Of a stretch of 51,692 nt of DNA, positions 35,997 to 43,979 are shown piece by piece. The translations under genes were made by a program, and so were the position numbers. Position 1 is the first letter of the stretch. Each line of letters starts with the position of its first letter. The notes under the pieces were generated by a model that saw nothing but the letters and a program-made list of their open reading frames with translations, was not told where the DNA came from and did no database searches. Source of the stretch: a virus; IMG/VR virus record IMGVR_UViG_3300005529_001122, positions 1 through 51,692 of that record; one strand, 5' to 3'.

Positions 35997-36029
35997 GTGC
36001 TTCGGGTCGGGGCCGGTACCGCGGCGGGT

Positions 36030-36049
36030 GGTAACTTGGTTGGGTTACC
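36030..36049. repeat. GGTAAC/GTTACC inverted repeat
   Basis: A perfect 6-base inverted repeat (GGTAAC 36030-36035, GTTACC 36044-36049) with an 8-base centre, plus two direct GGTAACT units at 36133-36146. These lie in the 338-base gap 35997-36334, which has no convincing gene. They could be operator sites for the methyltransferase genes. Confidence 0.35.
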
Positions 36050-36298
36050 GCGCGCGGGGCGTACCAGGTCAGCCGAGTGAAAAAATCCAGCCGTTGCGCG
36101 GCTTTAGGGGCACCCAGGCGCCAACGTCGCGTGGTAACTGGTAACTCAGATTTTGTGGCTGCCTGTAGCGAAATTCCGGGCCATTGCCCCCCGCATACCA
36201 TTTCCGCCAGGGAGGACCCGCGACTCGGCTCTGTTGATCGCGCGCGCCTCTCGCGAGCCTGCCGTCGAAGCTATCGAATTCCCGTGTTTATGGAAGTA

Positions 36299-37219: not shown

Positions 37220-37557
37220 TGCTGCGTCTCCTCAGTGTGCTGCGATGTCTGGACTGCCGCGGCGGCCGCAAAATCGATAACGGCACCGATGATGGAAGCC
37301 GGCTCGGCATTGCCGAGACGGCCCATGCTGCTCGCAATCTCGCGCGGCTCGACTCCGTGTTGCATGAGGCAGGAGACGACGATGCAGGCATCAGCTAGAA
37401 GCCCGTCGAGATTCGAGCCGCTCCGCAGCCCGTGGGTGAACACTTCACCGGGTCGTCCATCCGGATAAAAGCCGACCGTCACCGTGAACCGCTGACCGCC
37501 GTGCTCGAGCTCAACCGTTTCCGCGGCGCGTCGATTGGGCAAACGCACGCGCGTCAT
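37216..37557 (-). CDS. Stand-alone TSCPD-domain protein
   Basis: The 113-residue product resembles the TSCPD domain found at the C-terminus of class II ribonucleotide reductases: GQRFTVTVGFYPDGRPGEVFTHG, a short helix, then ADACIVVSCLMQHGVEPREIASSM. In that family the domain helps reduce or bind the enzyme. Here no reductase gene is visible in the window, so it may assist a host reductase or have another role. It overlaps both neighbours by 4 bases. Confidence 0.6.
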   Translation of the reverse strand: MTRVRLPNRRAAETVELEHGGQRFTVTVGFYPDGRPGEVFTHGLRSGSNLDGLLADACIVVSCLMQHGVEPREIASSMGRLGNAEPASIIGAVIDFAAAAAVQTSQHTEETQQ

Positions 37558-38081
37558 CGCACGCCTCCATGCGTCTCAATCGACCAGAGCAGGATGGCGA
37601 TGGCATCTGCTTCGTTGTCGTCGACAGGCTTAAAGCCACGCGCTTGCACGGCGGCAATGACCGCTGACTTATCCGCGTTCCCCTTGCCAGCGATGAAGCG
37701 CTTGATCGTGCTGACCGGAACGCCTTGGTAGGCGATGCCCTGCTGCTCGCACCAGGACGTTAGCGTCGCGAGCAGGCCGCCGTAGACATGCGCTGCATCA
37801 GTGCCGAGATGCCTCCGCACTTCCTCGAAATAGATCGCTGCAAGGCCGGTGGCGTCCGTCGCCATGCAATCGAGCCATCCGCGGAAGCGTAGATAGCGCA
37901 TGCCGCCGCCATCGTAGCGGCTCGGGCGAAACGAGACGGCACCGCTCTCAATCCTGCCGCCGGCGAGCTGCATCGCCCAGCCGGTTGTGGTGCCGAGATC
38001 GAGCGCGAGTACGGCCGATCGGCTGCGATCAATTGATCGCTCAGCCGCCTCAGCCACCGCAGGTTCAGTGGAGATGTTCAC
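37554..38081 (-). CDS. RuvC-like Holliday junction resolvase
   Basis: The 175-residue RNase-H-fold protein has acidic residues in the RuvC places: Asp28 in ALDLGTTTGWA, Glu86-Glu87 in IYFEEVRR, and Asp154/155 and Asp159 in DDNEADAIAI. A VSTIKRFIAGKGNADKS region matches the DNA-contacting loop of phage resolvases. It would cut branched recombination or replication intermediates before packaging. An upstream 436-base gap with iterons precedes its start, so its promoter probably lies there. Confidence 0.82.
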   Translation of the reverse strand: MNISTEPAVAEAAERSIDRSRSAVLALDLGTTTGWAMQLAGGRIESGAVSFRPSRYDGGGMRYLRFRGWLDCMATDATGLAAIYFEEVRRHLGTDAAHVYGGLLATLTSWCEQQGIAYQGVPVSTIKRFIAGKGNADKSAVIAAVQARGFKPVDDNEADAIAILLWSIETHGGVR

Positions 38082-38200
38082 TACGAAGGCTCACGCAAGT
38101 GGGCCTTCGGCTTTGGTCAGCAACGACCTTAGGACGAGCAAATCTCGCTGATCAAGCAAAAAGGAATCGCGTTCGGGAAGGTTCGAAAAAGATCGTAGTT

Positions 38201-38462
38201 GTCACCGCCTGACGCGGCTTGCGCCACGTCGATCGGGAAAGGTGGTGACAGGCTATTCGTGTGCCGCGTCAGCGACTTAGTCGGTTTGTCACCACTGTCA
38301 CCATGTCACCACCAGCTCCTATAGACATTCATATAGAGAGGGTGCTCAGAACACCCTTTCTTACGTGTATGGTTTGAAACAGGTGGTGCAGGTGGTGACA
38401 GTGGTGACACGCTTGTTTTTGCTCGCAAATTTTTGTCACCACCTTGTCACCACCGTCACCAC
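38201..38462. repeat. Iteron-like TGTCACCAC field, candidate phage replication origin
   Basis: Three clusters of about three TGTCACCAC-type units stand in the 436-base gap 38082-38517. Cluster A (+ orientation) begins at 38287, 38296 and 38304. Cluster B (inverted) is at 38383, 38392 and 38401. Cluster C (+ orientation) begins at 38434, 38445 and 38454. A lone inverted unit is at 38242-38250 and a shorter GTCACC at 38201. Between A and B is a small hairpin, AGGGTG/CACCCT, in AT-rich sequence. A primase-VapE helicase gene lies about 3 kb away. Repeats spaced 8-11 bases around an AT-rich centre are how many phage and plasmid origins look. A repressor-binding field is the alternative. Confidence 0.6.
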
Positions 38463-38517
38463 TTCAATGGTAGCTCTTTTGGGGACGTGCTGGAGCTGAA
38501 GGGCGGTCGCTTTCAGG

Positions 38518-39315
38518 TTAGGGGCCAATGTCGATGAAGACCGGGATACCGACGCGCTCGGGTGCGGGCGCATCCAGCACCTTGATGCGAACTTGTTGCT
38601 CGTTCTCTGCCGGCTGTCCTAGTACGTCATCCATCAACAGCTTAATCAGGCCATAAAGAACCGCGTGCATGTGCCAGTTCGCCTTGCTCGCATCGTCGAG
38701 CGCAATCTTGGTGCCCTTGCGCACGCGCTCCTCGTGACTTCCGATGGCCGCTCCATCGGCCTCGTCCGCGATCATGGCGAAGGCAGCGCGGAACACGAGA
38801 GCCGAGCCCATGTAGTAGAGCGAGTTCGCCGGATGCTGTGCGAGGTAGAGGCTATTTTCGCCAGCGGCCAAATTGTCGGCTGCCTCGGTAAGGTTGAGCC
38901 GGTCATAGTGGAACGCGGTCTTGTCGCGGATGATCTTCAGCGCGCTGCCCTTGAACGGCTGCTCGTTGCCGAAGTAATCGGTCAACCATCGCAGGCTCGC
39001 TTGATGCGCCGGCTCGAGGCGGGGCACGACATCGGGCGGATTCGACTGCAAGAACCGCTCATTGAGCATAACCCACGTCTCGAACAGCTTGGCCGCCAGA
39101 AGTTGCAGCATGAACCACATCTGCACCGACTGCGCCGAATTGTGCAGCTCACCGTCGCCGGTGTCGTTCATCGTGAACATGAGCAAGCGGTTCAGGATCG
39201 TCAGCTCATTGTGCGCGTGCATGCAGCCGACGAACTGATTGCGCAGGCGGTTGCTTGCGCTCTTTAAGCGCGCTTCATCGACTGTGAGATGGATGAGCTG
39301 AAAATCCTTTGCCAT
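38518..39315 (-). CDS. HEPN-like protein A of the three-gene cassette
   Basis: A 265-residue mostly helical protein with no close known relative by eye. Residues 130-136 read R-D-K-T-A-F-H, an R-x5-H arrangement followed by Tyr, as in the RX4-6H motif of HEPN RNases. Long helices precede it (SVQMWFMLQLLAAKLFETW). ATG 39315 was chosen because GAGAG lies about 10 bases before it; a GTG 14 codons upstream would overlap the previous gene. The gene ends at the iteron region. The protein could be an RNase toxin or a structural helical protein; the motif alone does not prove activity. Confidence 0.58.
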   Translation of the reverse strand: MAKDFQLIHLTVDEARLKSASNRLRNQFVGCMHAHNELTILNRLLMFTMNDTGDGELHNSAQSVQMWFMLQLLAAKLFETWVMLNERFLQSNPPDVVPRLEPAHQASLRWLTDYFGNEQPFKGSALKIIRDKTAFHYDRLNLTEAADNLAAGENSLYLAQHPANSLYYMGSALVFRAAFAMIADEADGAAIGSHEERVRKGTKIALDDASKANWHMHAVLYGLIKLLMDDVLGQPAENEQQVRIKVLDAPAPERVGIPVFIDIGP

Positions 39316-39346
39316 CGCTGTCGCTCTCAATGTGCCGCTGCCCCCA

Positions 39347-40405
39347 TCACGGGCCACCTAATTGGCCATCGTTGATGTAACGCGGGTCGAAGCCGCCAAG
39401 CGCATCGGTCGGATTGATGGAGGCGCCCCACAGCGTCCGCCGCTCATTCTCGCTCAGCGCCCAAAAGGCTTTCAGCGCGTCGGTGTTGGCAAAGTGCGAC
39501 CACAGCTTGCTATCGAGCAGGATGCGCACCAGCGCACTGCGCGCCATGTACTCCATCATCTCCAGCTTTTTCACCAGGTCAAGCCGCGCAGTGCGGTCGA
39601 AAGCCTCCAGGTGCTTATTCTCGTACAGGTGTTCAACGTCGCTGCGCACGTCATACGTCTCGCCCATCAACGTGTGATGCCGAGGGCCGATGAACAGCTC
39701 TGTCCGGCTCTTAAATCGGTTCTTGCCTTGACCCGGCTCCGACACGATCAGCCCCTCGATGCAGCGGCAGTATTGATGCAGCCGGTCCATGTTGTCGCGG
39801 ATCGTGCGGATTTCCAGGTATAAGTGCAGGACGCGAAAGAGCCGCCAGTGACCGCCGGCCAGCGGCGTGGTTTCGATGGCAGCGATCTGCGAGGCGATCT
39901 TGGCCGCCAATTGCAACTCCGCGAGCGTCACTGGCGGATAGTGCCGGACCATACTCGGGATGGCCGAATCGTAGTCGTCCTGCGAGCGGACCTTGATCTC
40001 GCTTTGGTGACGGTATCCGGCAAGCATGACCGGCTTGTGTGCCGGCGCAAATGGGCTTGCGAGCAGAAGGCCGGCATAGAAGTGCCCCGCGTGCCGCTTT
40101 AGCTCGGCAGTCTCGGCATCGACGACTTCCGGCACCTGCGACCGCATCTTGCTGAGCAAGAACAGATTGCTGTCCTCGACCTCCTCGGTACGGATCGTGC
40201 CAAGCCACTCGCGCCAGTGCGCCGGCATATCGAACCGCGCATCCGCGAACGCCCAATGGTTCGGCGTCATCTCCTGGAGCGGCACGGGGTCATCAAGCTT
40301 CACGCTCAGCGCGATCACGGCATATTTCTGGCCGTCATCGATCCAGGATGCGGAATTGCGTCGGCTCGGTTCTATGGTCATGGCATCGTGTTCGAGTGCC
40401 TGCAT
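39347..40405 (-). CDS. HEPN-like protein B of the three-gene cassette
   Basis: A 352-residue protein starting at ATG 40405, with AGGAG 8 bases upstream. Its last third is helical and includes YDVRSDVEH at about 251-259, an R-x4-H motif in a setting (RxxVEH after a Tyr-Asp) like that of ApeA- and Abi-type HEPN domains. The first half is mixed alpha-beta with Trp- and His-rich segments (MTPNHWAFADARFDMPAHW). Genes A and B lie 31 bases apart and end with partner C in one - strand group. An anti-phage abortive response is plausible but untested. Confidence 0.6.
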   Translation of the reverse strand: MQALEHDAMTIEPSRRNSASWIDDGQKYAVIALSVKLDDPVPLQEMTPNHWAFADARFDMPAHWREWLGTIRTEEVEDSNLFLLSKMRSQVPEVVDAETAELKRHAGHFYAGLLLASPFAPAHKPVMLAGYRHQSEIKVRSQDDYDSAIPSMVRHYPPVTLAELQLAAKIASQIAAIETTPLAGGHWRLFRVLHLYLEIRTIRDNMDRLHQYCRCIEGLIVSEPGQGKNRFKSRTELFIGPRHHTLMGETYDVRSDVEHLYENKHLEAFDRTARLDLVKKLEMMEYMARSALVRILLDSKLWSHFANTDALKAFWALSENERRTLWGASINPTDALGGFDPRYINDGQLGGP

Positions 40406-40439
40406 TGTGGCAGCTCCTAGCTGTGTTCGCGCATCGGGC

Positions 40440-41321
40440 CTAACTCCAGCCCTTCTTGAAGATCATAAAGACGGGCTTCGCCGCGTCGTAGACGGCCAGA
40501 TCGAGATGCCGAAAAACCCATGACAGTTTCGACTTGGCCGGCGCCTCCTCGGGCGGGTTGTAAAGGCTTTTGACGTATTCGGGATCGTCGAGCTTCGGCT
40601 CAATCTCGCGGATGATGCGCGCGCAGTCTTGAGCGTACCGAACGACATGGACGGCGTGACCCGAGGTTGTGATCATTGCAGGCACCACGACCGTGCCCGG
40701 CGCAACGCCACGAGTGATGATACTCTCGTGAAGCGCCCAAAGCCGCATGCGTTCGGCAGAGCTTTTGTTGAACACGTCATGGTGAAAGATTGCGATCACC
40801 TTGAAGGTTTCGCGGCGAACCTCTGCGAAGATCAGATCATCGGTGCGATCAACGTGCCCGCGCTTTTGCGTTGTCGTGCCGAGATGAAAATGGTGGAAAC
40901 CCATGACGTTCAAGAGGAAGTCTTTATCGGACCACCGATCATCCGGCGTAGCGCCGGATGTGCGCGCCGCAGGGGCGTATCCCCGAGTGCGCGGTTCGAT
41001 GGAAAGGTGCGGCGTCAGGTCGTCGCCCCGCTCCACCTTGTCGAGGAAGGCTTTGATCGCCGCAGCGTCGGCCGACCAACGCGGGTCGGCCTGAGCCGCC
41101 CGCTCGATTGAAACGGTACGCGGGCGCTCACCAACATAGCGCGAGCGCCAGTTGATGTAGTCGATGAGCAGATCGGTAAGGTGCTTCGCCTCCATGTGCT
41201 GGAGTGAAGCCTTGTTGTTCGGAACGCGCGGGATCGCCTTGATAAGATCGCGCCGCAATCTCTTGATGCGCGGCGGCTCAGCAGCGGTCGCCTGCGCCGC
41301 TGTCGTAGCCGACTTGCGCAT
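40440..41321 (-). CDS. His-rich uncharacterised protein C of the cassette
   Basis: A 293-residue protein with a basic N-terminus (RIKRLRRDLIKAIP) and a helical middle. A striking His cluster at 141-147 (GFHHFHLG) is followed by VDRTDDLIFAEV and IAIFHHDVF near 158-184. Such invariant-looking His and Asp/Arg residues in short strands suggest an active site, perhaps a nuclease or hydrolase. I do not recognise a named family, though proteins with a similar HHxHxG core occur in mobile elements. It is first in a three-gene run with two HEPN-like genes and has its own possible promoter upstream. Confidence 0.6.
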   Translation of the reverse strand: MRKSATTAAQATAAEPPRIKRLRRDLIKAIPRVPNNKASLQHMEAKHLTDLLIDYINWRSRYVGERPRTVSIERAAQADPRWSADAAAIKAFLDKVERGDDLTPHLSIEPRTRGYAPAARTSGATPDDRWSDKDFLLNVMGFHHFHLGTTTQKRGHVDRTDDLIFAEVRRETFKVIAIFHHDVFNKSSAERMRLWALHESIITRGVAPGTVVVPAMITTSGHAVHVVRYAQDCARIIREIEPKLDDPEYVKSLYNPPEEAPAKSKLSWVFRHLDLAVYDAAKPVFMIFKKGWS

Positions 41322-41456: not shown

Positions 41457-43979
41457 TTACGTTTTTCGATATCGCCACTCGCGCAACATGCCGCTGCGCG
41501 CTTGGTATCTCTCCCATTGCCTCGTTTTGAGGTATGCGCCAACACGCATCTGATCAGCCTTCGTCCACCGTGCCGGCTCAATGCCGAGGGCCCCTTCGAG
41601 GATTTCACCGACTGACACATCGGTAAGTGGTGTCGCGCGCTCAACTTCCTCATCGTGCCAATCATCGTAATTGGCATAGCCATGATTGACCCGCCGCCGC
41701 TCATAGACGAGCCACCGATCGATACGGGCGTCCCAGGCGTCGGCGTGGTAGCGCTGATCCTGCTCAGCCTTGGCAAGAGCTATCAGCTCTGGGTCGTCGA
41801 GCCACCAGATAGCGCCTTCACGATAGCGCGCCACCGCTTCGGCCCACAGCTGATCGCGGTCGCGCGCAAGCCCGTCAACGTCGATCATCCCGCAGCGGAT
41901 CGGCCAGAAGCGTCGGTTGCCGGTCTCGTCGCGCAAATATGTTTCTGGATTGACGCTGCCGGCAAAGATGCATTGACGCGGCACCGTGACCACGTAGCGC
42001 TCGTAGGGCGGGCGATAACGATCGGTGGTGCGGGTCAGAAATGCCTTGATCCGCGACACCTCGGCGCGACTGATGGCATCGAGTTCGGCGAATTCGACAA
42101 CCCAGATTCCGCGCATCTGTTGCGCGGCATCTTTGCTGCCGATCTCGGCGAGCTCGTCCGTGAACCACTCGGCGCCCGCGAGCGTTTTGATGGCGCTTGA
42201 TTTCTTGCCGCCCTGCGGGCCTTCGAGAATCAGCATGTGATCGACCTTGCAGCCCGGCTGCATGATGCGGGCAACGCCCGAGATCATCCAGCGCGAGCCG
42301 ACGGCACGATTGAGCTGCGTGTCTTCGGCGCCGAGATAGACGATCACCCATCGTTCCAGCCGCGGCACGCCATCCCAGCGCAGGCTCGTCAAATAATCGC
42401 GAACCGGGTGAATACGAATCTCACGTGCCACCGCGCCAACACCGCGGCTGACTGTGATGGGTGAGACATTGATCTCGCGTCGCTGCAACCACTCGGCGCA
42501 GCGCACATCATCCGCATCGGTCCATGCACGCGGCAGAGTGGGCGGCTGTTCGTCCCAAGGCAGTGGCCGCATTACCAGCACTTCCTGGCGGAACTCGTCG
42601 AACACCATGGCGCCCGCTAACGCCTCGTCATTGGAGAGCGCGGTGATGACGTTTGCCTCATTGCGCTCGGGCGTGCCGGCGAGATCGAGGCGGAGCTGGT
42701 TTGCCCAGCGGGGCCGAACGGGCCGATGGTGGATATCTCCGGTCGTGTTCAGGCGGCGGCGTAGCTCGCCGATCTGCTTTTCCAAGATCGAGACGGCTAT
42801 TCCCGTGGCGCTCTTGACCGCTAGCAGAACCTGGCGCTCGGGCAAGGGCTCCAGGCGCGCCAGGACGAGCTGACCAAGCAAGGTACCCAGAGCCGTGATG
42901 TCGGGCGGGTTTGTCAGGCCGCGAGCGCCTGCTTCAAACTCTGCAACGGTCGCCGGCGCGACGGGCGTGCTCACCGCAGTGGGTTCCGATTGCTGGTAGT
43001 CGGCGGCCGTCGCCCCGTGCAGCAGATCGTCGTTGAAATCATCGCCATGCAGGGGGCGAACGACGGTGTTCGGTATGTCGGCGGCATTGAGCTGGCCGAC
43101 GAGCGCGGCGGCAGCCTGCATTCCTGCATCGCCGGCATCGGCGAAGATGATCACGCGTTTGATGCCCTGCGGCCACTCCCAGCGGCGTAATCCGTCGGCG
43201 GACAGAGCGGCCCAGGTCGGAATCCTGAAGATCGCCTGTGCCGAGAGGGCTGTCTCGATCCCTTCGGCAATGCCGAGACGACCGTCCTCGGGCAATGGTG
43301 CAAGCCCGACCGAGCCGCCGGCGACCGGATCAAGCATCTTCTTGCCGGCGGGCGCCTTGCCCGATCCATCATCGAGCAGAAAAGTGCGGTGGATGCCGCC
43401 GGTCGGCGAACCCGCACCATCCCGCACGATCGCCACCAGGCCGGGCCGGCCGCGCTTCGCCTCGTAATCGGTCAGGTCGGCATTGAACAAAAGGTCCGGG
43501 GAGCCCGGATCAGAAAGGCCGCGGCTCTTCAGATAGACCTCGCCGAGGGTCCCGGCGAGCGGCTGGCAGCCAGCGAGAATACGGGCCACCTCGTGGGCGT
43601 GATCGCGGCGCGGCGCCGGCGGTGGTCGCACTGGCGCCGGCCGATCCAGTCGGGCATTGCGCGCGGCTTCCTCGAACAGCGCCGGGGGCGTGAGGCCGGT
43701 GCCATGGTGGATCAGGTCGATCGGGCCGGCGCATTCGCCGGTGGCGTGATCGTAACCCCAACCGGCGCGCGGGCCCCGGAGGTGGATGACACACGAGCCC
43801 TCATTGCGCGGCGCACGCCCGGACAGGTCGGCGCAGCGCAGGGTCTTGCGATCGGCCGATATGCGCGCATGCGGAAATAGCGGCGGCAGCCATTCGGCTG
43901 CCGTTGCACAAAGCCGCTCGCGAATCTCGCCGAGGTCGTAGCGGACGGGCGGCCTCCAGACCTCGTTGAGATCGATCAT
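41457..43979 (-). CDS. Primase-helicase fusion (Toprim plus VapE/SF3-like)
   Basis: The 840-residue product starts with a primase-like region and a Toprim domain (EGIETALSAQAIF and IFADAGDAGMQAAAAL at about 240-290). The C-terminal half is a VapE/SF3-like helicase with Walker A GPQGGKKSS near Gly587-Lys592, the strand RGIWVVEFAELDAI, and a CIFAGSVNPETYL sensor region. Such proteins start and drive replication in many prophages and satellite elements. It overlaps the RecD-like gene by four bases. The iteron field 3 kb downstream is a reasonable origin for it. The Walker A Lys pair and intact Toprim acidic residues suggest activity. Confidence 0.84.
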   Translation of the reverse strand: MIDLNEVWRPPVRYDLGEIRERLCATAAEWLPPLFPHARISADRKTLRCADLSGRAPRNEGSCVIHLRGPRAGWGYDHATGECAGPIDLIHHGTGLTPPALFEEAARNARLDRPAPVRPPPAPRRDHAHEVARILAGCQPLAGTLGEVYLKSRGLSDPGSPDLLFNADLTDYEAKRGRPGLVAIVRDGAGSPTGGIHRTFLLDDGSGKAPAGKKMLDPVAGGSVGLAPLPEDGRLGIAEGIETALSAQAIFRIPTWAALSADGLRRWEWPQGIKRVIIFADAGDAGMQAAAALVGQLNAADIPNTVVRPLHGDDFNDDLLHGATAADYQQSEPTAVSTPVAPATVAEFEAGARGLTNPPDITALGTLLGQLVLARLEPLPERQVLLAVKSATGIAVSILEKQIGELRRRLNTTGDIHHRPVRPRWANQLRLDLAGTPERNEANVITALSNDEALAGAMVFDEFRQEVLVMRPLPWDEQPPTLPRAWTDADDVRCAEWLQRREINVSPITVSRGVGAVAREIRIHPVRDYLTSLRWDGVPRLERWVIVYLGAEDTQLNRAVGSRWMISGVARIMQPGCKVDHMLILEGPQGGKKSSAIKTLAGAEWFTDELAEIGSKDAAQQMRGIWVVEFAELDAISRAEVSRIKAFLTRTTDRYRPPYERYVVTVPRQCIFAGSVNPETYLRDETGNRRFWPIRCGMIDVDGLARDRDQLWAEAVARYREGAIWWLDDPELIALAKAEQDQRYHADAWDARIDRWLVYERRRVNHGYANYDDWHDEEVERATPLTDVSVGEILEGALGIEPARWTKADQMRVGAYLKTRQWERYQARSGMLREWRYRKT

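Follow-up and report, generated by a model that had tools for sequence, protein, structure and literature searches.

Which protein reads a field of short repeats in a gene-free gap of a phage genome, and could replication begin there? We address this question for a window of 51,692 bases, a virus record that encodes a large terminase (phrog_15, 7.6e-260) and an S24-type repressor and therefore represents a temperate phage, whole or in part.

The repeat field and its candidate reader

The repeats lie in an ORF-free gap of 436 bp (38082-38517, - strand), with a RuvC-like gene (37554-38081) on one side and a gene without assigned function (38518-39357) on the other. An initial annotation had described a field of near-identical 9-base units at 38201-38462, and a pattern search bore this out: 38200-38462 contains TGTCACCAC seven times exactly and three times with one mismatch (Table 1). 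Exact copies of TGTCACCAC/GTGGTGACA number seven in the entire 51,692-base record, every one of them within 38242-38453; shuffled windows hold a mean of 0.135 and a maximum of 3 exact copies. With up to one mismatch allowed, the 51.7 kb record has 20 matches where 6.85 are expected, and ten of these 20 fall into 38200-38462. Read along the + strand, the iterons are ordered + - +++ on one side and -- +++ on the other side of a core with 55% A+T, compared to 37% for the record, which includes a TATA-rich stretch (38320-38334) and an imperfect, hairpin-capable dyad (38335-38361; RNA fold z -3.8). A scan found no terminator-like site at this hairpin, and its form is not kept in relatives. GC skew along the record shows no turn at the iteron field and thus contributes no origin signal.

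Table 1. Coordinates of the iteron field, the candidate initiator gene and the genes between them
Feature	Position	Strand	Basis or remark
Iteron set 1	38200..38312	.	pattern search, repeat finder
Set 1 iteron TGTCACCGC	38200-38208	+	pattern search
Set 1 iteron	38242-38250	-	pattern search
Set 1 iteron	38287-38295	+	pattern search
Set 1 iteron TGTCACCAT	38296-38304	+	pattern search
Set 1 iteron	38304-38312	+	pattern search
Putative origin core between iteron sets; candidate strand-opening region	38313..38391	.	base composition, fold
Iteron set 2	38392..38462	.	pattern search
Set 2 iteron	38392-38400	-	pattern search
Set 2 iteron	38401-38409	-	pattern search
Set 2 iteron	38434-38442	+	pattern search
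Set 2 iteron	38445-38453	+	pattern search
Set 2 iteron CGTCACCAC	38454-38462	+	pattern search
Three genes between candidate initiator and putative origin	38518..41321	-	gap length varies in relatives
Gene matching the PD-T4-7 defence family (E 2.6e-13)	40440-41321	-	family match
Primase-helicase, candidate initiator, 840 aa	41457..43979	-	Pfam VapE-like 6e-84, Toprim_3 1.2e-24
Predicted winged-helix codons, residues 790-838	41466..41612	-	AlphaFold2 models, co-variation

The candidate reader is a primase-helicase that combines DUF7146, a DnaG-type Toprim_3 domain, a VapE helicase and a predicted C-terminal winged helix. Its family profile found a single sequence relative in the PDB, 7PDS, over residues 426-761 (E 1.4e-64), which the structure library describes as PriRep1 with dsDNA. 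We take PriRep1 to be the SaPI1 protein. With regard to iteron recognition by the C-terminal winged helix, the fold match to 7PDS is weak (E 0.12). AlphaFold2 models place K807 and G814 in a recognition helix (807-819) and Q826 in the first of two wing strands (823-829 and 832-838).

The initial annotation had the field beside this primase-VapE module; the field stands, but the adjacency does not hold in this record, where the array follows 3.0 kb downstream of vapE with three genes between, though the two are adjacent in many relatives. Two of the intervening genes (38518-39357 and 39347-40405) gave no Pfam or PHROG match. We note that the gap between vapE and the array resembles an insertion spot for cargo genes.

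Position and anatomy of the array in relatives

Relatives of the primase-helicase were taken from viral contigs and bacterial genomes, yielding 186 unique VapE proteins of phages and prophages whose named hosts are, apart from a few metagenome-assembled genomes with other labels, nearly all Alphaproteobacteria. In 158 of these 186, vapE is followed downstream by a clear iteron array, meaning that a single iteron type occurs four or more times without mismatch within 420 bp. Most of the remaining relatives come without downstream DNA or have weaker arrays, and no array was recognisable in L039, L273 and L216. We also counted repeats without reference to any motif (at least five identical 8-mers within 320 bp) at the 92 loci where 5 kb of sequence was available to either side of vapE, and found a dense array in the downstream 5 kb of 80/92, compared to 0/92 each for upstream DNA, the inside of vapE and shuffled sequence. 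The array begins around 20-100 bp past vapE at many loci and kilobases off where genes are inserted. Among nine named VapE phages, six have clear arrays shortly downstream of the gene (Pseudomonas U5, Marinobacter PS3, Bacteroides F2, Corynebacterium Adelaide, Staphylococcus phi2958PVL and Listeria LWP01), two have weaker ones (Streptococcus Javan100 and an Oscillospirales phage), and Acidovorax Aval has none downstream of vapE.

The two-sided anatomy is shared as well, with an AT-rich region enclosed between two iteron sets across 155 arrays (median core length 82 bp; A+T 0.52 vs 0.34). TATA-rich motifs are conserved in these cores; the dyad in the core is weakly supported over the family as a whole (mean z 1.2).

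These features also bear on a regulatory role, in which VapE or another phage protein would mainly control transcription of the downstream RuvC-like or late-side genes while replication starts elsewhere. The field indeed occupies the 5' region of the 37554-38081 gene, and the conserved TATA-rich core motifs might be a promoter, but a scan found no sigma-70-like promoter and, in relatives, the array accompanies vapE with or without inserted genes between the two. Given that SaPI/PICI origins of the same layout drive plasmid replication (PMC6092414), we consider this explanation improbable.

Co-variation of iterons with VapE residues

Further evidence for the identity of the reader comes from the spelling of the iterons, which differs among relatives (TGTCCCAAC, TGTCCCAC, TGTCACCAAC, TGTCACCAC and rarer types). 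Residue 826 is Q at 41/41 loci with TGTCACC and K or R at all 94 aligned loci with TGTCCC, and residue 814 is G at 59/59 loci with CCAC and S, T or A at 83 of 84 aligned loci with CCAAC. When the 840 VapE columns are ranked by how well they predict iteron type, residue 826 comes first for TGTCACC against TGTCCC, where it accounts for 100% of the type information, and residues 807 and 814 come first for CCAC against CCAAC, where residue 814 accounts for 95%. With phylogenetically independent pairs drawn from a tree of VapE residues 1-740, polarisation was complete for residue 826 (11/11) and residue 814 (26/26), and the next best columns outside 807/814/826 scored 7 and 10; flipping labels within pairs reached the observed scores in 0 of 1000 trials. 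The rule is kept at every aligned locus with the array more than 1 kb from vapE (54 for residue 826, 55 for residue 814), and the co-variation is therefore not only a matter of close linkage.

A small forward test outside the training set drew on seven new proteins, given that most further loci repeated earlier ones, and all three scorable four-class arrays were as predicted (L449, L452 and L491), including one located 5.9 kb from vapE (L491). At another locus outside the training set, L437, the array is weak and belongs to a different type, and the divergent relatives L492-L497 were left out because no full ORF was recognised. One locus, L041, is an exception in combining G814 with CCAAC iterons, and the minority types TGTCCAAC, CCCTACC and TGGCCCCAC are not fully fitted by the two-residue rule. 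At around 6576-6800 of L015, the iteron TGCACCAC is found where the wing reads RYQRQ rather than RYQxR, and residue 828 may read the TGTC half.

Readout of A by glutamine and of G by lysine or arginine is chemically reasonable, but we can only infer the register of bases to residues because the iteron types are not equally long (TGTCACC/TGTCCC; CCAC/CCAAC). The co-variation and the structural models agree in pointing to the C-terminal winged helix as the candidate site of iteron recognition. Three pairs of loci (L017/L016, L029/L229 and L312/L220) are near-identical over VapE residues 1-740 yet differ in both winged helix and iteron, which suggests an exchange of the winged helix and the origin as a unit. 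We lean towards a more general view in which VapE-family phage initiators hold an evolving C-terminal winged-helix code, with residues 807/814 for one iteron half and 826 for the other; winged helix and iterons would change in concert while the rest of the primase-helicase stays conserved, creating many mutually incompatible replicons whose specificity is predictable from sequence alone.

The same matched variation speaks against operators of CI/Cro or another repressor, a very unlikely explanation even though short repeated units can be operators and the phage has its S24-type repressor, because the iteron variants track VapE residues and no array lies near cI/cro, where a single one-mismatch site was found (50641). 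The phage also encodes ParB-domain methyltransferase fusions, and a different repeat cluster (GGTAAC/GTTACC) occurs at 36029-36148 upstream of a ParB-domain methyltransferase gene, with equivalents (GTGGTAAC, GGTTACC, GGTTTCC and GGTTCGCA) upstream of methyltransferase genes in L012, L030, L035, L066 and others. We rejected the GGTAAC, GGTTTCC and GGTTCGCA arrays as variant iterons because they are separate and upstream of methyltransferase genes; possibly, they are an operator or site of another protein. The ParB domains could suggest a partition (parS-like) or packaging site at 38200-38462, but the repeat beside the ParB-domain gene is a different one and the vapE-linked array follows VapE, leaving this proposal with hardly any credit.

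The array downstream of vapE, the anatomy around its AT-rich core and the matched variation of iterons and winged helix, all observed here, lead us to interpret 38200-38462 as the likely phage replication origin (probability around 90%) and thus support the initial proposal of an origin with the primase-helicase as candidate initiator. The C-terminal winged helix of this protein would bind each TGTCACCAC iteron, with helix 807-819 reading the CCAC/CCAAC half and wing residue 826 reading the TGTCACC/TGTCCC half. Facing iteron groups could let the protein assemble on both sides of the core, possibly with double loading, from where it would open the core strands and load as helicase. The Toprim domain would then prime replication, which probably proceeds in both directions.

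Comparison with known replicons

If this interpretation is correct, a large family of temperate phages of full size, and VapE phages of several phyla besides, carry a SaPI/PICI-like replicon, which contradicts the published statement that only PICIs have origins laid out in this way. The interpretation would also yield a table of which residue specifies which base in a primase-helicase initiator, deduced from sequence, and suggests how replicon incompatibility evolves among co-resident prophages and satellites.

The closest likeness is to the Rep/ori systems of SaPI1 (PriRep1), SaPI5 (Rep) and SaPIbov1, based on homology of the VapE/D5-like helicase (7PDS) and a C-terminal DNA-binding domain, here predicted. 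The C-terminal domain of SaPI Rep recognises iterons downstream of its own gene, comparable to the short-iteron array 3' of vapE (PMC7581432). In contrast, the primases of SaPIbov1 and SaPI5 are of AEP type (PMC7581432), whereas 41457-43979 encodes a Toprim/DnaG-type primase (Toprim_3 and DUF7146). The iteron sequences are also unlike those of SaPIs, and the putative origin here belongs to a full-size phage with terminase and may sit kilobases off behind inserted genes.

Origins of PICIs always have two iteron sets around an AT-rich region, and in PICIs of Gram-negative bacteria (EcCICFT073) this arrangement lies just 3' of pri-rep (PMC6092414). However, PICIs are satellites without virion genes of their own, whereas the large terminase marks the record studied here as a phage and not a PICI. 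The P4 alpha protein is likewise a primase-helicase initiator that binds short iterons, at ori/crr, but its helicase family and layout differ from those of our phage. P4 alpha is named in the study of PICI origins (PMC6092414). The SCCmec protein Cch2 similarly binds repeats downstream of its gene with a C-terminal domain (PMC7581432), but there the helicase and polymerase-primase are separate and the iterons are three units of 5 nt. Across these comparisons, the locus appears best explained as a SaPI/PICI-like replicon of common helicase ancestry that resides in a full-size temperate phage and employs a Toprim-type primase.
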